From Minwuia sp. (lineage in GTDB: Bacteria > Pseudomonadota > Alphaproteobacteria > Minwuiales > Minwuiaceae): a DNA stretch of 46,744 bases. The notes under the pieces are model-generated. The model did no database searches and had not been told where the DNA came from. It worked only from the letters and a program-made list of their open reading frames with translations. The first letter of the stretch is position 1, and the number at the start of each line of letters is the position of its first letter. The position numbers and the translations under genes are program-made. Location: positions 1 through 46,744 of the forward strand of contig JARGPL010000034.1 in assembly GCA_029210175.1 (NCBI GenBank), in the 5' to 3' direction. Below are positions 7,712-35,005 of this stretch, in pieces.

Positions 7712-8656
7712 TCAGGTCCGTGTGAGGCGCTGGCAGATCTCGTCGAGCTGCTCCAGGGTGCGGTAACTGATGCGCACCTCACCCTTGCCACCCTTGTGGC
7801 GGACGTCGACCTTCAGTCCCAGGGCATCCGCCAGACTTTGCTCCAGAGCCAGTGTGTCCGGGTCCTTGCGACGCGTCGGCGCAGGTCGCGGATCCGATAC
7901 CTGCTGCTTCACCTGCCGCCGGATCGCCTCCACATCGCGCACGTTCAGGCCCCGCTCGACCACCTCCCGCGCCAGTCCGGCAGGGTCCTCTGCGGTGATC
8001 ACCGCACGGGCGGCACCGGCGGTCAGTTCGCCCGACCGGACGTAGGACTTGACGTCATCCGGTAGGGACATCAGTCGCACTGCGTTGGCCACATGGCTGC
8101 GGCTCTTGCCGACAGCCTCACCGATCTCTGCGGGGGAGTGCCCGAACTCGTTCATCAGGCGCTGGTAGCCCTCCGCCTCTTCCATCGGGTTCAGATCCTG
8201 GCGCTGGATGTTCTCGATCAGCGCGATCTGCAGTGCCTCGGTATCATTCAGCTGACGGACGATGACCGGGACTTCATGCAGCTGCGCCAGTTGCGCCGCA
8301 CGCCAGCGCCGCTCTCCCGCGACGATCTCGTAGGTTTCCTCACCGCCGGTTTCCGCCTCGGGCAGCTGCCGCACGATCAGTGGCTGCAGCACCCCCTGGC
8401 GATTGATCGACTGGACCAGCGTATCCAGCTCATCGGCGTCAAAGGCCTGGCGCGGCTGATAGCGACCGGGACGCAGGTAGGCCACGGGTACCTGACGCAA
8501 GCCGCGCCCGCGATCCATCGCGCGTTCGTTCGCGCCAGGCTCCTCGCCCAGCAGGGCGGACAGGCCGCGCCCAAGGCCACGGGTGGCCTGGCGCGGGGCC
8601 GGATCCTTCGGTGCTGCAGGCTGTTCGCCGCCTGCCGGATCATCCTCGAAAGTCAT
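7712..8656 (-). CDS. parB: Chromosome-partitioning protein ParB
   Basis: The 314-residue protein is the CTP-dependent clamp that loads at parS and spreads to form the partition complex. Visible: an N-terminal ParA-stimulating stretch RGLGRGLSALLG (26-37), the CTP-binding/ParB N-domain with GERRWRA (114-120) and the ENIQRQDLNP segment, a helix-turn-helix around residues 173-197 that would contact parS, and a C-terminal dimerisation domain. It follows parA by 69 bases on the same strand. Three exact parS sites occur in this window at 10095, 12159 and 20375. Confidence 0.97.
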   Translation of the reverse strand: MTFEDDPAGGEQPAAPKDPAPRQATRGLGRGLSALLGEEPGANERAMDRGRGLRQVPVAYLRPGRYQPRQAFDADELDTLVQSINRQGVLQPLIVRQLPEAETGGEETYEIVAGERRWRAAQLAQLHEVPVIVRQLNDTEALQIALIENIQRQDLNPMEEAEGYQRLMNEFGHSPAEIGEAVGKSRSHVANAVRLMSLPDDVKSYVRSGELTAGAARAVITAEDPAGLAREVVERGLNVRDVEAIRRQVKQQVSDPRPAPTRRKDPDTLALEQSLADALGLKVDVRHKGGKGEVRISYRTLEQLDEICQRLTRT

Positions 8657-8725: not shown

Positions 8726-9541
8726 TCAGGCCGCACGGCGCTGCTTCTCCCGGCGCAGCATCTCGCCCGCAAGCTGGATATAGGCCTGGCTGCCGGCACA
8801 GCGGTGATCATACAGCAAGGCCGGGCGACCGTGCGAGGGTGCTTCCGACACACGCACGTTGCGGGGAATGATCGTGTCATAGACCTTTGCACCCAGATGC
8901 GCGCGCACATCATCGGCCACCTGTTCGGACAGCCGGTTCCGCCGGTCGAACATGGTCAGCACAATGCCCTGCACTTCCAGGCGCGGATTCAGGGTCCGGC
9001 GCACCCGGTCGATGGTGGACAGCAATTGCGACAGACCTTCCAGCGCGAAGAACTCGCACTGCAGCGGCACCAGCACCGCATCCGCCGCGACCATCGCGTT
9101 CACCGTCACCAGATTGAGGGAGGGCGGGCAGTCGATCAGGATGAAGTCATAGATGTCGATCACGTCCCGCAGCGCGGCATCGAGCTGCCGCTGCGGCGCG
9201 TCCAGTTCTACCAGTTCGAGCTCAGCCCCTGACAGCTCTACCGATGCCGGAACGATGTCGAGATTGGGTATGGCTGTCGGGACAGTCGCCGCCCCTACCG
9301 TGGTGGCACCGACCAGCAGATGATAGGACGTCAGGGTCCGCCTGGAACGATCGATCCCGAAACCGGTGGAGGCATTGCCCTGGGCATCCAGATCGATCAG
9401 CAGCACCTTGCGACCCACCGCCGCCAGCGCCGTGCCCAGATTGATGGCCGTCGTCGTCTTGCCAACGCCACCCTTCTGATTCACCACCGCCAGTTTGCGT
9501 GCCTGGCGTGTCGGGCGGCTATTGCGAAGTTGACTGTCCAT
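8726..9541 (-). CDS. parA: Chromosome-partitioning ATPase ParA
   Basis: A 271-residue deviant-Walker ATPase that binds DNA non-specifically as an ATP dimer and moves ParB-parS complexes. Seen: the deviant Walker A KGGVGKTTTA from residue 23, the Walker A-prime DLDAQGNAS, and the Walker B-like FILIDCPPSL. The ATG at 9541 was chosen because AGGGGA lies about ten bases upstream (plus-strand TCCCCT at 9552-9557) and because it matches family length; the longer frame to 9607 would add 22 residues of a different composition. The 5' end overlaps the rsmG 3' end by 23 bases, so rsmG-parA-parB is one transcription unit. Confidence 0.97.
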   Translation of the reverse strand: MDSQLRNSRPTRQARKLAVVNQKGGVGKTTTAINLGTALAAVGRKVLLIDLDAQGNASTGFGIDRSRRTLTSYHLLVGATTVGAATVPTAIPNLDIVPASVELSGAELELVELDAPQRQLDAALRDVIDIYDFILIDCPPSLNLVTVNAMVAADAVLVPLQCEFFALEGLSQLLSTIDRVRRTLNPRLEVQGIVLTMFDRRNRLSEQVADDVRAHLGAKVYDTIIPRNVRVSEAPSHGRPALLYDHRCAGSQAYIQLAGEMLRREKQRRAA

Positions 9542-10142
9542 GTCGTTGAAGTCCCCTGATGAGGAGAACGGAGCCCGCGCCGTCGCTGAGGCTCTCGTGA
9601 CGCTCACAGGTGAATTTCCAACATTTCGTGGCTTCGGTCAACTCACTCTCAACATCTTGGCCTTTGAGCAACGCGCCGACCGAACTTGCGTGCATGAAGG
9701 GTGCGACCCAGTCCAGCAATGTCGGCAGGCCGGCAAGAGCCCTGGCACTCACCACATCCGCCGTCAGATCGTCGACTGTTTCAAGGCGCGCGTTGCGTAC
9801 GCTGATGTTCAATTCCATGGTCCGCGCGGCTTCCCGCAGAAAGACACATTTCCGCGCATCCGATTCGATCAGGGTCACGGCGGCCCCATGGGTTGCCGCG
9901 ACCACGAGGCCGGGAAAGCCGCCGCCGCTGCCGAGATCGATCCAGCTTCTCGCATCGCCGGACACCAGCGGCACCAGCTGCCAGGAATCAAGCACATGCC
10001 GGGACCAGAACTGACCGAGGGTACTCCGGGACACCAGATTGATGCGGGGATTCCACTTGTTCAGCAGATCCTCGAGCGCGCGCAACCGATCCACTGTTTC
10101 ACGTGAAACACCACTGCGTGACCGAAACTGCTGTGCATCCAT
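9519..10142 (-). CDS. rsmG: 16S rRNA (guanine-N7)-methyltransferase RsmG (GidB)
   Basis: The 207-residue SAM-dependent enzyme methylates N7 of G527 (E. coli numbering) in 16S rRNA. It shows the Rossmann SAM motif DLGSGGGFPG (69-78), VTLIESDARKCVFL and the VVSARALAGLPTLL segment. The N-terminal codons for V12-S13-R14-E15-T16 are written so that they contain an exact parS site, so this gene carries a partition element inside its coding sequence. It lies 14 bases after mnmG and overlaps parA. Confidence 0.96.
   Translation of the reverse strand: MDAQQFRSRSGVSRETVDRLRALEDLLNKWNPRINLVSRSTLGQFWSRHVLDSWQLVPLVSGDARSWIDLGSGGGFPGLVVAATHGAAVTLIESDARKCVFLREAARTMELNISVRNARLETVDDLTADVVSARALAGLPTLLDWVAPFMHASSVGALLKGQDVESELTEATKCWKFTCERHESLSDGAGSVLLIRGLQRHGQSTSQ
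10095..10110. promoter_or_regulatory. parS site 1 (inside rsmG)
   Basis: The sequence TGTTTCACGTGAAACA is a perfect 16-bp palindrome identical to the bacterial chromosomal parS consensus. It lies in the fifth codon block from the start of rsmG. ParB should load here and spread. Confidence 0.95.
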
Positions 10143-12158: not shown

Positions 12159-12174
12159 TGTTTCACGTGAAACA
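12159..12174. promoter_or_regulatory. parS site 2 (mnmE-mnmG intergenic)
   Basis: A second exact TGTTTCACGTGAAACA lies between mnmE (stop at 12207) and mnmG, about 2.06 kb from the first site. It is non-coding here, unlike site 1. Confidence 0.95.
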
Positions 12175-17018: not shown

Positions 17019-18779
17019 CTACCCAAACCGGAGACCGAAAAGACCACCTGTTTCTTCTTCATCAGTCAGCCGCGTTGGATTTACGTAGCTTTGGACGAGG
17101 AAGTCGTCTTGAAATCCACCCTCAGGCAGAGCGTCAGAGTTCATTGTGACAATATACTGGAAACCAGCCCTTTCGGCGTGACTAGCGCCTAACTGGAGTG
17201 CCTTCGCGATTTGCCTTTCATCAACGCCATCAAACAGGTGGCTATCATGAATCAAGAAGCCTGGTCCAATACCTCGTTTTGTTGTCAGCTCCGCCAACAT
17301 CAGGTCGAAGCAGAAAATCTGCATATTGGTGATACCCTTGCTGCGTTGGGCGTCGATAGTCACCTCAAAGGTCGGTCCGTTCGGCGTAGCCGCCACGGTC
17401 AGGCTTCCGGCCTGCTTATAAAGCGATGTAGACAAGCCCTCGAAAATCACGATGGCTTCATTGATAATCTCGCTCCGCTCGTGAAGGTCATTTAAGAGGG
17501 CTTGCTGCAACCGCGCTCGCTCGATGTCGAGCTGAACTTTTGTGTTTTCAATGCGTTCCGCGATTTCCAGCTGCTGGCGTAACGATTCGACGTTAGCTTC
17601 AGCGCGTCCAGCCTCTTCCTGAAGGCGCGAGTAGTGGTCCAATGCCCCACCTGATTGAAGGATGCCCATGAGCTGCCCACGTCGGTGGTCCAATTCGCCA
17701 CGACGCGCTTCACGTTCCACAATGCGAGCCTCAGCAGACGAGATTTCCGAAGACAGATGTGCCTGCCGGTTGCGGATTATTGCTTCGTGAAACTCGGACA
17801 CCTCCTCAAAACGACGACCGATTGTCTCAGGAAGCACAACGCCAGCCTCGCTGTATAGTTTCTCTACATTCGTAATCGCTGGAGGTTCTTCACTTTCTAA
17901 AGCTGTCCTCAGTTGCAGGATCAACTCCCGGTCAATGAGGTTGTCGTCGTTGATTGTAGAAATCATTCGCGTGATCTGCGAAGCTTCCTGCTCCATCCCA
18001 GAATACTCAGGCACTACGTTAAACGCGGCGAGATGCTGCTGAAGCTGGCGAACTTTAGTTTCTGCTATAGCGAGACGCGTTCGGAAGTCTGCTGAGCTTC
18101 CGTAGAACTCGCCTAAATCGCCCTGCTTCGCAGCCTTTCGCAGTTCGGCCATCGCACTTTCTTGAGCGCGTGTCTCCTGAAACTCCTGGGAAATACTGGC
18201 ATCAAGTCCTAGGAGATATGAAATAGCGACTTGCTGGTCCCATTTTTGCTGCCGCCCTGAGTGCAGCGTCGGCTGAACAATTCCACCGCTGTTTTGGCGG
18301 CGCGCGAAGTACGAAAATAGTGAACGAAAAGTGGGCCCGAAGCGACTCGTCGCGTCGGGGTTCGTGGACAAATCGAACAAGAGCGCACCTAGATCGTTTC
18401 TCCAGTTCGTATTTGACAGAATGAGGTCTCCAGTATTTTTCTCCAGATCCGGTTTGATCGGCCAATGTTCAGTTTCGCCCTGCAGTCGGATACAAGCGGG
18501 GTTAGCTCCGGATCGCGCCGCAGAGACTGTGTGACCACCAATGTCAGCTTGTATCTCGAACAATGACGGCTTCAATTCGTCAGATCGAAAAATACTGTCC
18601 GCCTTGACGTTGCCGCCATAGATAAAATGGATCAACTCGACAAAGCTGGTTTTCCCAGCCCCATTTCTCGATTGTTTGTCTGTAGCTTCAGCAGATTTCT
18701 CGGCGAGAAGAATATTGAGCCCTTTCCCGAAGGTTAGGGATTTGAAACTCTCAAGATCGCTCGTGATGCTATGAATCAT
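17019..18779 (-). CDS. DUF2326 ABC-type ATPase of an ABC-three-component system
   Basis: The 586-residue protein opens MIHSITSDLESFKSLTFGKGLNILLAEKS, an SMC/RecF-like N-terminus, with Walker A SRNGAGKTS at 37-45, a long coiled-coil-rich middle (about 220-440) and, near 505-520, the DUF2326 Walker-B-like segment GFLIHDSHLFDGVDERQ. DUF2326 proteins are the ATPase component of ABC-3C conflict systems, thought to sense invading nucleic acid or replication intermediates and license an effector. No classical LSGGQ signature was seen, as is usual in this family. Its ATG overlaps the stop of the middle-component gene by four bases. The frame extends to 18920, but that would overlap the upstream gene. 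Composition is clearly less GC-rich than the flanks, indicating transfer. Confidence 0.88.
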   Translation of the reverse strand: MIHSITSDLESFKSLTFGKGLNILLAEKSAEATDKQSRNGAGKTSFVELIHFIYGGNVKADSIFRSDELKPSLFEIQADIGGHTVSAARSGANPACIRLQGETEHWPIKPDLEKNTGDLILSNTNWRNDLGALLFDLSTNPDATSRFGPTFRSLFSYFARRQNSGGIVQPTLHSGRQQKWDQQVAISYLLGLDASISQEFQETRAQESAMAELRKAAKQGDLGEFYGSSADFRTRLAIAETKVRQLQQHLAAFNVVPEYSGMEQEASQITRMISTINDDNLIDRELILQLRTALESEEPPAITNVEKLYSEAGVVLPETIGRRFEEVSEFHEAIIRNRQAHLSSEISSAEARIVEREARRGELDHRRGQLMGILQSGGALDHYSRLQEEAGRAEANVESLRQQLEIAERIENTKVQLDIERARLQQALLNDLHERSEIINEAIVIFEGLSTSLYKQAGSLTVAATPNGPTFEVTIDAQRSKGITNMQIFCFDLMLAELTTKRGIGPGFLIHDSHLFDGVDERQIAKALQLGASHAERAGFQYIVTMNSDALPEGGFQDDFLVQSYVNPTRLTDEEETGGLFGLRFG

Positions 18780-19021
18780 GGCGCAGACTTTCGCAGAACG
18801 CCGCTGTCGAAGCTCACAGCATTCAATATGAAGAGTAAGTCGAGCGCTAGAATGAACCAATCGTAGTTGATCGGAGCGACCCCGATGTGTCCGCCTTCCT
18901 GCTTGCGCACTCCATCCCATACGCGGGAAACAGTCATTGGCTCATGCAGGCAAGCGAGGATGTCCGCTCCAACGGTCAAGAGTGCCCGTTCGGGACGGAT
19001 ATGTTTGGTCGGAAGAATCAT
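18776..19021 (-). CDS. ABC-three-component system middle component (MC6-like)
   Basis: An 81-residue protein starting MILPTKHIRPERALLTVGADIL and containing SRVWDGVRK and NYDWFILALDLLFILNAV. The length, the opening motif and the position between an effector-like gene and a DUF2326 ATPase match the small middle component of class MC6. Middle components resemble winged-helix or adaptor proteins and are proposed to bridge ATPase and effector. Both ends overlap the neighbours by four bases (ATGA type), so the three genes are translationally coupled. Confidence 0.85.
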   Translation of the reverse strand: MILPTKHIRPERALLTVGADILACLHEPMTVSRVWDGVRKQEGGHIGVAPINYDWFILALDLLFILNAVSFDSGVLRKSAP

Positions 19022-19929
19022 GTGTTAGCCTCTGTCACTACATGATCCTCGAAGATGTCACAGCGCTCAAAGAAATACGACATGACGGCCAGCACTGCTG
19101 CCTGATGTTGGGGGGTGCCCGTCATTCCTCCTGCGTACTGCTGCAGTTCCATGAAGGTGCGATCAGCTGATTGCTCCCGCTGCTTCAAGTCTTGATAGCG
19201 ATTACGGAAGCCCTGAGCGATCTCCTCGCCAAAGTCGGGGTTCGGGAACTGGTTGAAATATTTCTCGACTAGTAGCTCTCTCCGACGGCCCTGACGCAGA
19301 AGCTCTGCAGCATCGTCAGATAGATCGTTTACGTTAAGCTTGGAAGCCGAAGGAGCCAACACAGGAGCATTGTTATCGGGGTTCATTCTCTGGATCACCA
19401 TCACAACAGGGCGCAGCGCCTCGAAGTCGAGTTTTGCAAGCACCTGCTGGGTCGGCACGGGGCCAAAGAGGTCTTCAAGTTGCTCCTGTGACAGCGACAT
19501 GGTGATCGCGAAAAGCTCCGAATAGCTCATCTGTTCAAGCGCTACAGCCGGGTTCGCCGCACCGAGGTCTATGAGCTGTTGGATAGCGTTGGCTGGAAGG
19601 CCGTCATCGTCGTTGTGGACAAAGGTCCAGCGCTCCATACGCGACCCCCAGTGCGCAACAGCTCCAAGGAAATCTTCATCGACCTTGGCCTGAAGCTTAT
19701 CGAGCCTCGTTGTCTTTGGAGCGTAGCACTGGAACACCGTCTTGTCGCTGGTTCGGTAGCCATCGCATTTCAAATCACCCTTGTTTCCATATGGCCGCAC
19801 TGCCTGGAAATCACCAGGGAATGCATGGCCCATGATCCTTGAGAACAGATCCTCGAACGACTTGCCATGATTTTCCAAAAATGAGATGCGAAATTTCAAC
19901 TGAAAGAAATGTCTTTGAAGCTCATCCAT
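19018..19929 (-). CDS. ABC-three-component system effector-like protein with nuclease-like N-terminus
   Basis: The 303-residue first gene of the operon has an N-terminal domain with FEDLFSRIM, then RPYGNKGDLKCDGY (about 48-58) and VFQCYAP (about 65-71). This order, an acidic GD-x-K-x-D-G strand followed by a Q-x-Y strand, resembles PD-(D/E)xK/Mrr-type restriction-endonuclease folds, although a clean D/E-x-K pair is not obvious. The remainder is helical and would be the conserved C-terminal ABC-3C domain (CTD) that couples to the middle component. Assigning nuclease activity is an inference. ATG 19929 was chosen; a GTG at 19947 is possible. No strong Shine-Dalgarno sequence is seen for either. 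Confidence 0.75.
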   Translation of the reverse strand: MDELQRHFFQLKFRISFLENHGKSFEDLFSRIMGHAFPGDFQAVRPYGNKGDLKCDGYRTSDKTVFQCYAPKTTRLDKLQAKVDEDFLGAVAHWGSRMERWTFVHNDDDGLPANAIQQLIDLGAANPAVALEQMSYSELFAITMSLSQEQLEDLFGPVPTQQVLAKLDFEALRPVVMVIQRMNPDNNAPVLAPSASKLNVNDLSDDAAELLRQGRRRELLVEKYFNQFPNPDFGEEIAQGFRNRYQDLKQREQSADRTFMELQQYAGGMTGTPQHQAAVLAVMSYFFERCDIFEDHVVTEANT

Positions 19930-20374
19930 CGTCGGCTGCGCCACCACTGCTCACTCGTTCAATCGAATTGGCCAAAGCCACCAGTCTGTGTTCCCCACAG
20001 AATTTTCTACGATATCATGTCTGCCCGAAGCACTCACACAAGTCCAGCACGGTCAAGGTTCAGGAAATGATCAGATCGATGACTGGTGTCCGCTTTGCCG
20101 CAGGCATAGCCGATCTTTTTCACCCGCAGCGAACTTCCACTTCCCGTCCATATCTACCGATCCTACCCGTGTCCACAATGGCCGCTCCGGATCAGACGCT
20201 CACCCTCCCATTCTTGGCAACAGAGGCCCGCGTTCGAAAGGTTAGCGCACCGCGCAGGTGCTGATACCCTTCCTTCTGACCCGAGCCCCTGCCATCCAGC
20301 CACAACCCTCACCCCCCCTTGCCCCCACCCCGCCCCCTGCCTACCATCCTGCTAGACAGATCAGGCGTGAACGC
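19930..20374. other. Right flank of the ABC-3C island, no supported gene
   Basis: This 445-base stretch contains no frame with a recognisable domain or a convincing start. It must hold the promoter of the ABC-3C operon (minus strand), but no clear -35/-10 pair was picked out. Composition shifts back to GC/C-rich by about 20280, marking the right edge of the acquired segment; the parS site and the hydrolase gene follow. Confidence 0.5.
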
Positions 20375-20390
20375 TGTTTCACGTGAAACA
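20375..20390. promoter_or_regulatory. parS site 3 (upstream of the dienelactone hydrolase gene)
   Basis: A third exact TGTTTCACGTGAAACA lies 17 bases before the hydrolase ATG and about 8 kb from the proposed origin. It is the parS closest to the origin among the exact sites and sits beside the ABC-3C island. Confidence 0.95.
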
Positions 20391-27048: not shown

Positions 27049-28149
27049 TCAGACCGCCTCCAGAGGCACCTTCAGCCGGGTGCCATCCACCACGATCCCG
27101 CCCCGGTCACCAATGGTGATGGAGCCATAGCGTTCCGCATATACCTCTGGCAAGGGACGCGCGCCGGGGATTGCCAGCCACAGACGCAGCAGATGGCGTT
27201 TGCGCACCGCCTCCGGCCAGTCCTGATAGGCCAGCCTGTCATGCAGGATGGTGTGATTGTGCACAAGCTGGATGTCGCCGGGCCGGAACGTCATCTTCAG
27301 GTTCAGCGCGGGGTCATTGGCCAGTTCGTCGAACATGTCCAGCGCCGCGACCTCCCTGTCCGTCAGGCGGCGCGGCCCGTCGAGCCTGGCTGATGACATG
27401 ATGTAGCGCCGGGCATAGATCACGGAGAGATGACCCGCGTGATGATTGAATACGGGAATGTCGAACCAGGCCTTCTTGCCCGCCGGAATCTCACCGCGCC
27501 GATCGGTCGGAAAACTGCTGAACAGGGCCGCCAGCAGATCCGGACAGCGTGCGTGCATCTCGTTGTAGATCTGCATGGAACTCACAATGGCCGACTCACC
27601 CCCCGTCCTGGCGGTCTTCAGGCAGAGCAGCCCAACCACATCGCACGAATCCGTATGAAACGTCTGTCGCTCCGTCGTCTGATAGATCCTGACCTTCGGA
27701 TCGTCTGTCGACAGGCCCAGATCGCGCACGTGACCCAGCAGATGCCCCCGGGCATTCTGGCTGCGTGGGGTGCCGAGCAGCAGGCCAAGGCCGTACCAGG
27801 CGGCTGCGGTCTGTTCCATGTCCCAGCTGTCGGTGGGCAGCCCCCGTGCCAGCACGAACCCGCGACCATGCAGCAGGGTCTGCCGCCAGCTGTCAGCGCG
27901 TGCCTGCAGCGCAGGGTGATCCATGTCAGCCGCTGTCATCGCAGCGATCGGCTGGTCTGAACGCAGGAACTGTCGGACAGCCGAATCCAGCGCCTCGATG
28001 AAGCACGCATCAAGCGGATCGGTCCATGCCGCTTCCTGATCCTGCAGCGCCTCACCCCGCCAGGCTGAAGGTCCTGTGACCGGTGATGGCAGATCGGCCA
28101 TCGTCATTGCGCTGCTCATGCCCGGATCTTCGCGATCGGTTTCATGCAC
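27049..28149 (-). CDS. TauD/TfdA-family Fe(II)/2-oxoglutarate dioxygenase
   Basis: The 366-residue protein has the facial triad of the family: H165-T-D167 in TFHTDSCDVVGLL and a distal histidine in NHTILHDR (about 303), followed by RHLLRLWLA containing the 2-oxoglutarate arginine. It should hydroxylate an unknown small molecule using 2-oxoglutarate and oxygen. The closest layout is the group annotated only as TauD/TfdA dioxygenase, not taurine dioxygenase itself. The start is uncertain: GTG at 28149 has GGGGGAG close upstream, while ATG at 28119 lacks a site. It sits between hemE and the proposed origin, where the canonical order has nothing. Confidence 0.88.
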   Translation of the reverse strand: MHETDREDPGMSSAMTMADLPSPVTGPSAWRGEALQDQEAAWTDPLDACFIEALDSAVRQFLRSDQPIAAMTAADMDHPALQARADSWRQTLLHGRGFVLARGLPTDSWDMEQTAAAWYGLGLLLGTPRSQNARGHLLGHVRDLGLSTDDPKVRIYQTTERQTFHTDSCDVVGLLCLKTARTGGESAIVSSMQIYNEMHARCPDLLAALFSSFPTDRRGEIPAGKKAWFDIPVFNHHAGHLSVIYARRYIMSSARLDGPRRLTDREVAALDMFDELANDPALNLKMTFRPGDIQLVHNHTILHDRLAYQDWPEAVRKRHLLRLWLAIPGARPLPEVYAERYGSITIGDRGGIVVDGTRLKVPLEAV

Positions 28150-28161
28150 TCACTCCCCCAT

Positions 28162-28208
28162 CTTCTCTTAAGGATTCTTATAGACAAGATTCTTGTATTG
28201 GTAGTTGG
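28162..28208. other. AT-rich patch, candidate DNA-unwinding element
   Basis: The run from TCTTCTCTTAAGG to TGTATTGGTAG is the most AT-rich stretch of the origin region and contains two GATTC sites (28173-28177 and 28188-28192). It lies at the TauD-proximal edge. Confidence 0.45.
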
Positions 28209-28330
28209 TCGGCAGATAGCGGGGATACTTTCCGATCCCCATTTCGTGCACAGACCAGTTGCTGCAGCGCCATTCTATCCCCACTTTGCCCGCTGTTGGT
28301 GAAGGGCAGCCATGCGCGGTTTCCGTTGCC

Positions 28331-28339
28331 TTGTACACA
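28331..28339 (+). promoter_or_regulatory. DnaA-box-like 9-mer
   Basis: TTGTACACA differs from TTATNCACA at one position. It is one of two weak candidate boxes in the proposed origin. Confidence 0.4.
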
Positions 28340-28495
28340 GCTTCTACGGGACAGATCCGGCTTCTCCCGCTTTTCCCGCAGGTCCAGCGCGTTCGGCAGC
28401 GACCGGAACAGGCATGTGGAGGAATTTTGCCATAGGGTGTGCCGATTCCATCGCCTTCAGGCTCGCGTCCGATTCACCGCATCTGTACATTCGGC

Positions 28496-28504
28496 TGTGG
28501 ATGA
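28496..28504 (-). promoter_or_regulatory. DnaA-box-like 9-mer
   Basis: On the minus strand this reads TCATCCACA, one mismatch from TTATCCACA, and is also close to the moderate-affinity G-box TGATCCACA described for Caulobacter. Confidence 0.45.
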
Positions 28505-28582
28505 TTGTCATTGCGGGCGCCATCTCCGGCCCTCACGCCCGCCCCGCCCCGGATCAGGAAGCCAGCAGATGAAGATCAGCAC

Positions 28583-34996: not shown

Positions 34997-35005
34997 TGTG
35001 GATAA
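34997..35005 (-). promoter_or_regulatory. Perfect DnaA box upstream of gcrA
   Basis: The plus strand reads TGTGGATAA, the exact complement of TTATCCACA, embedded in an AT-rich patch (AATATATTG). It lies 106 bases upstream of the gcrA ATG and is the only perfect consensus DnaA box noticed in the intergenic sequence of this window. Confidence 0.75.

Follow-up and report, generated by a model that had tools for sequence, protein, structure and literature searches.

GANTC sites and a CcrM-type methylase have a role in Caulobacter, and AT-rich DNA has its own place in the order of elements that make up the basal unwinding system (BUS) of Bacillus. Two described origins are among the closest points of reference for the locus discussed here. 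The Caulobacter origin, Cori, was mapped between hemE and a ppsR-type gene, COG1806, and is described as carrying five six-base W-boxes with the consensus TCCCCA that DnaA binds very weakly (PMC1914354; PMC4285127, citing Taylor 2011). For Bacillus, a structural account has Asn187 of DnaA touching the middle adenine of the DnaA-trio at its amino group and Arg202 and Glu228 touching guanine; cytosine can replace the middle adenine, and guanine and thymine are worse (PMC10721633). In 15% of genomes the 2021 BUS paper detected no trios, and its authors suspected deviant versions lacking the middle adenine (PMC8287927).

The locus lies on one whole contig of 46,744 bp (the window) from a 4.09-Mb genome in 43 contigs, assigned to the genus Minwuia of the order Minwuiales. 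The nearest match to its ppsR product, at 97%, comes from an uncultured alphaproteobacterial MAG, followed by a Minwuia MAG at 91% and IMCC3096 (CP018227.1) at 90%. A reading of the window made from its letters alone had proposed the gap at 28150-28582 as a candidate chromosomal origin. The follow-up agrees with that proposal on position, on strand composition in a complete congener, on parS clustering, on retention across the class, and on conserved footprints within the genus, and we regard the gap as very likely to be the chromosomal oriC. Comparison of sequences also supports its assignment as a predicted orthologue of the hemE-ppsR origin.

Gene Order and Retention of the Gap

To the left of the gap, on the minus strand, are a gene for a TauD-family dioxygenase (27049-28149) and then hemE, and to the right, on the plus strand, are ppsR, maf, aroE, coaE, an RNase_T (dnaQ-type) gene, and rho. 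Farther left in the window are leuS, holA, parB (7712-8656, minus strand), parA (8726-9607, minus strand), rsmG, mnmG, and mnmE. The two gene sets do diverge at a Cori-like position, as the sequence-only reading had it, and the gap falls between hemE and ppsR (COG1806), with the TauD-family gene intervening in the genus. This spacer gene is present between hemE and the gap in all seven genus genomes, and no TauD-family match was found at the junction in the other (non-genus) loci examined.

Retention was assessed with 110 ppsR loci, namely the best 80 of 225 named matches together with 30 of the 35 matches in relatives (ppsR was present in 35 of 60 relatives, and 25 had no match). After six loci without a hemE match and six duplicates were removed, 98 distinct loci retained the hemE-ppsR gap, with lengths from 312 to 884 bp. 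Four of the six loci lacking a hemE match (L027, L030, L033, and L080) extend at least 3 kb upstream of ppsR and hold no hemE in that stretch, which shows that hemE and ppsR are not linked in every case; the other two (L009 and L074) end early upstream. L080 is peculiar in its own right, since its contig is titled Candidatus Marinimicrobia and yet encodes an alphaproteobacterial-type ppsR (52% identical) with hemE absent upstream, perhaps through an error of binning or naming.

An alignment of the gap in the seven congeners, with two family-level loci left out, has 75 invariant columns of 433. Four invariant runs of at least five columns stand out, TTATA (28178), GGGGA (28221), GCACAG (28248), and TCCCC (28278), compared with 0.05 expected in shuffled columns (at most 2). 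The gap spans 433 bp and has a GC content of 57%, compared with 60-68% for most of the window. Its AT-rich patch, which had been noted from the sequence alone, is real and peaks at 66% in 28161-28210. The highest AT content of the window, 70%, lies outside the gap near 19866, in a low-GC island.

Predicted Sites Within the Gap

No perfect DnaA box was found in the gap, just as the letters had first suggested. One box has a single mismatch, and five have at most two, at 28178, 28275, 28331, 28415, and 28496, where the remainder of the window would predict 0.6 (P ~4e-4). The claim of two near-consensus boxes thus holds for one, TCATCCACA at 28496-28504 on the minus strand, and not for a second at the one-mismatch level. 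Boxes with two mismatches include TTGTACACA (28331-28339, plus strand), TCCTCCACA (28415-28423, minus strand), and the putative W-type box CTATCCCCA (28275-28283, plus strand), whose TCCCC is invariant in all seven congeners. A half-box, TGCACAG, lies at 28247-28253 on the plus strand, and its GCACAG is likewise invariant in 7/7. Close to the AT-rich DNA, two positions on the minus strand adjoin one another: a decayed proximal box at 28211-28219 (GGCAGATAG on the plus strand) with four mismatches, and a distal W-type box at 28220-28228 (CGGGGATAC on the plus strand) with a TCCCCG core, in which GGGGA is invariant in all seven congeners. The sole perfect DnaA box of the window is elsewhere, at 34997-35005 on the minus strand.

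The repeated TATCCCC motif reported from the sequence was confirmed. Both copies in the window are inside the gap, at 28221-28227 (minus) and 28276-28282 (plus); the right arm of the hairpin reads GATCCCC (28234-28240). The hairpin itself is an inverted repeat GGGGAT/ATCCCC at 28221-28240. It was considered as a conserved element and set aside, because inspection by eye found the full 6-bp arms in two of the seven congeners, the window and G005; it is not taken as functional. Its right arm does contain one of two exact predicted W-boxes TCCCCA in the gap (28236-28241), the other of which begins at 28278. An AT-rich block at 28166-28192 (plus strand) is the putative DNA unwinding element; two GANTC sites and the invariant TTATA (28178-28182, 7/7) fall within it. 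The gap combines an AT-rich stretch with a cluster of predicted DnaA-type sites, none of them perfect.

GANTC sites number four, matching the count of CcrM-type sites given beforehand, at 28173, 28188, 28444-28448, and 28471-28475 (0.7 expected, P 0.005), and the genome encodes a CcrM-type methylase (N6_N4_Mtase + RAMA). Across the class, GANTC is 4.1 times denser in the gaps than in their flanks, an enrichment that may be due in part to the lower GC content of the gaps. Scans of the gap for CtrA sites (TTAA-N7-TTAA and the loose form TTWW-N7-TTWW) and for the IHF consensus WATCAN5WTR returned none; CtrA control of the Caulobacter type at this origin is therefore not supported. The lack of CtrA sites is not unusual, since a review describes them as absent from most other origins (PMC4468827).

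A BUS-like Core Next to hemE

In about 60 of the 91 non-genus gaps the side next to hemE has a common order, AT-rich DNA, a triplet array, CCTGTGGATA, and CGGGGAT, which is not clear in every locus. The core was aligned on the first GGGGAT in the first 200 bases, present in 59 of the 91 gaps (60 with GGGGA[TG]); in 31-32 gaps no GGGGA[TG] anchor stands where one is expected. In the resulting class profile, built from 50 non-redundant of the 59 non-genus loci, the 9-mers TGTGGATAA and CGGGGATTA abut. When both strands of the window are scored with this profile, the best place is 28166 on the plus strand, at 14.8 bits, and the next unrelated place scores 3.6. With the anchor bases excluded, the core in the gap ranks first among the 27 anchors of the window, and the origin of the complete congener G003 ranks first among 337 anchors in 800 kb. 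In a leave-one-out analysis 90% of the 50 loci score above the highest background, the lowest left-out locus reaching -31. Core scores are low for the window (4.2) and G005 (-2.3) against a leave-one-out median of 34.

The trio-like array of the window, at 28193-28207 on the plus strand, reads TTG TAT TGG TAG TTG; four of the five triplets fit 5'-WNG-3', and the longest unbroken run is three. Triplet statistics were computed on 45 non-redundant of 67 sites, four of them from the genus, with the window collapsed into G005. The longest WNG run averages 3.29 compared with 1.88 in dinucleotide shuffles (z 12.6), and runs of the published NAN pattern average 2.51 compared with 2.33 (z 1.6). Seven triplet patterns were tried, so the choice of WNG is post hoc; NAN, NAG, and TAR do not exceed the shuffles (z 1.6, 0.7, and 1.4), and TNG, WNG, NNG, and WDG do (z 11.8-14.6). 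WNG runs of at least four occur in 16/45 loci at the site, in 0/45 on the opposite strand, and in 3/812 other gap segments. Where runs reach at least three triplets, as they do in 24 of the 41 non-genus loci, the middle position is taken by A (34), G (32), or T (34) and never by C (0), in a region with a C content of 10%. A coding explanation is unlikely, because the triplet frame is free relative to hemE (19, 13, and 9 of 41) and a stop interrupts the hemE frame in 31/41.

The published BUS rule was applied in simplified form. The window fails the box part (best site with at most two mismatches, second with at most four), its sites having four and three, and also the trio part (at least three NAN trios within 0-16 bp). 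Among 60 non-genus loci, 33 satisfy the box part, 11 the trio part, and 4 the whole. We call the core BUS-like and not a BUS member because of the failure in the window.

These results leave room for an origin in which the triplets are a mere GT-rich strand flanking the AT-rich block, which DnaA does not read base by base. The free middle base, the failed trio rule, the scarcity of loci that pass the whole rule, and the selection of WNG from among several patterns all lend this account some weight, as does the fact that the control loci, taken around dnaA in 25 other-class genomes, were uninformative on canonical trios, because the origin need not be there. Against it, the period-3 G survives dinucleotide shuffling, and the triplets are specific to strand and place without holding a fixed frame to hemE. 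We consider it unlikely, though a serious competitor to base-wise reading by DnaA.

The DnaA protein bears on the preferred reading, in which the triplets would be recognized. With residues numbered by alignment to the Bacillus structure 8btg, positions 187, 202, and 228 in DnaA of the window organism are Tyr, Lys, and Glu, and the box-reading RDHTTV stretch of this protein is identical to that of Bacillus. Across 31 alphaproteobacterial DnaAs, seven from the genus, residue 187 is Tyr in 28, Phe in 2, and Arg in 1, whereas 202 is Lys and 228 is Glu in 31/31; two further alphaproteobacterial DnaAs also have Tyr at 187. In 25 DnaAs of other classes, drawn from the best 30 loci (by score) of 80 genomes, residue 187 is A in 9, N in 5, Q in 5, T in 4, G in 1, and S in 1, and aromatic in none. 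No simple two-state rule links residue 187 to the middle base, since the residue also varies outside the class. The conserved Lys and Glu are consistent with a constant G in the triplets, as is the loss of Asn with a middle base that varies; the agreement is correlative. A tentative proposal, to which we give somewhat less than even chances, is that the code has been recast in alphaproteobacteria: DnaA with an aromatic residue 187 would read 3'-G-(A/G/T)-(T/A)-5' triplets without selecting a middle adenine, loaded from a W-type CGGGGAT, and the canonical proximal box would have decayed in the window and in the congener closest to it, with the W-type box being retained. Many alphaproteobacterial origins seem to supply the suspected deviant trios together with a substituted middle-base-reading residue, and the trio code becomes testable by exchanging one DnaA residue and one base.

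W-type Boxes Across Alphaproteobacterial Gaps

The most enriched 8-mer in the 91 non-genus gaps is TTATCCCC, found in 62/91 compared with 1.1 expected and in 56/81 after similar gaps were collapsed. Its density is 2.06 per kb in the gaps and 0.028 in the flanks, a 74-fold difference. The exact 8-mer occurs in none of the seven genus gaps, where the shorter ATCCCC is present. The canonical TTATCCACA occurs in 37/91 non-genus gaps, and the Caulobacter G-box TGATCCACA occurs in 1/91 and was not found in the gap of the window. The gaps exceed the flanks in density 11.9-fold for TCCCCA and 9.0-fold for TCCCCG, and this together with the match to the W-box of Cori indicates that TATCCCC belongs to the W-box kind and is common in the class. 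The idea that this motif serves as a DnaA site accordingly agrees with what is described for Caulobacter, and, as judged from sequence, weak W-type boxes are likely the primary DnaA sites of the gap.

A different protein might bind the TCCCC sites of a genuine origin and leave DnaA with the right-hand boxes. TCCCCA does differ from the DnaA box, and the very weak binding described for Caulobacter W-boxes would suit such an arrangement. Caulobacter W-boxes are nonetheless described as weak DnaA sites, and the motif lies directly against a DnaA box in the class profile and often carries the TTATCC half of one, which makes a second binder rather improbable next to DnaA itself. In the literature searched, with sources available in part, no earlier account was found of TTATCCCC in connection with DnaA and replication (the supplements of the BUS paper aside), nor of a DnaA-trio in alphaproteobacteria or of GGGGAT at Cori. 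The 8-mer combined with the triplet core offers a signature by which origins can be recognized in draft genomes of alphaproteobacteria.

Strand Composition, parS, and dnaA

The cumulative GC skew of the window has its minimum at 28-29 kb. A skew minimum elsewhere, for instance near dnaA, had been named beforehand as a finding that would speak against the gap, and skew was sampled in G003 (40 samples of 20 kb), where the switch is at the gap and not at dnaA. Left of the locus 20/20 samples are negative and right of it 15/20 are positive (Mann-Whitney P 4.5e-6). Between the samples at 1.77 and 1.93 Mb, a stretch that includes the gap (1.7915-1.7919 Mb), the cumulative curve runs flat at its lowest level, with the minimum after 1.824 Mb; it peaks after 3.86 Mb, roughly half a chromosome away. 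Because of this flatness, skew alone does not pin the gap. Locally, over 40 kb, the minimum in 1-kb steps is at 1,791 kb. The dnaA gene of G003, at 1,529,530, is ~261 kb from the gap and within the negative-skew arm. A second complete congener, G006, has a weak trend (6/10 and 7/10, P 0.054) and no local skew minimum at its gap; one of its 20-kb samples, at 3.40 Mb, has 38% GC compared with mostly 66-69% and is likely a foreign island.

All three perfect parS sites of the genome are in the window, at 10095-10110, 12159-12174, and 20375-20390, 8-18 kb from the gap; the two remaining matches in the genome have two mismatches each and are outside the window. G003 has two perfect parS sites and one with a single mismatch within 18 kb of its gap. 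The gap is thus near parS and at a switch in strand composition, with the skew taken from G003 and the trend in G006 being weak. Between the second and third parS sites of the window is the low-GC (52-53%) island, 17019-19947, of two genes with ABC-three-component C-terminal domains, whose best PADLOC matches are B and A of the candidate defence system PDC-M68. A low-GC stretch (41-50%) at 1,780-1,783 kb in G003 is likewise between its second and third parS sites.

That the gap is just the promoter region of two divergent genes, with the origin nearby at, for example, parS or dnaA, would suit its intergenic position and the flat skew of G003, but it is very improbable given that Rfam, sigma-70-type promoter, and terminator scans of the gap returned no match, that skew does not switch at dnaA in G003, and that DnaA-box-like motifs are enriched in the class gaps.

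Proposed Mode of Opening

Taken as a whole, the explanation that we consider probable is an oriC of a Minwuia-group alphaproteobacterium at which DnaA on weak W-type boxes would drive a leftward, BUS-like opening. DnaA would dock on weak boxes, chiefly those of W-type (TCCCC-A/G) next to the AT-rich block. Starting at the tandem site (28211-28228), it would assemble leftward along the strand of 5'-(T/A)NG-3' triplets and so open the AT-rich block at 28166-28192, where the helicase could be loaded in the manner of the basal unwinding system. Weak boxes farther right would stabilize the DnaA complex, and methylation at GANTC may serve to distinguish origins that have just been replicated.

Comparison with Known Systems

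The gap shares its hemE-ppsR/COG1806 position and an AT-rich block with Cori of Caulobacter crescentus (PMC1914354, PMC4468827, PMC4285127), and also weak DnaA sites that include W-boxes TCCCCA, which are predicted here. parS is ~8 kb away in Caulobacter and 8-18 kb away here. Unlike Cori, the gap is without CtrA sites (even loose ones), the IHF consensus, and the G-box, and a TauD-family gene stands between it and hemE. Rickettsia origins have hemE and COG1806 as flanking genes in common with the gap but are far more AT-rich (81-83%) and have reported IHF-type sites, of which none was found here (PMC1914354). With the BUS of Bacillus subtilis the core shares both its elements and their order: AT-rich DNA, a trinucleotide array with a conserved G, a spacer, and two adjacent co-oriented DnaA-type sites (PMC8287927, PMC10721633). 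The two differ in the middle base of the triplet, which is A in the published trio and A, G, or T but never C here, in the distal site, which here is the W-type CGGGGAT, and in residue 187 of DnaA, where Asn in Bacillus corresponds to Tyr in the Minwuia protein.
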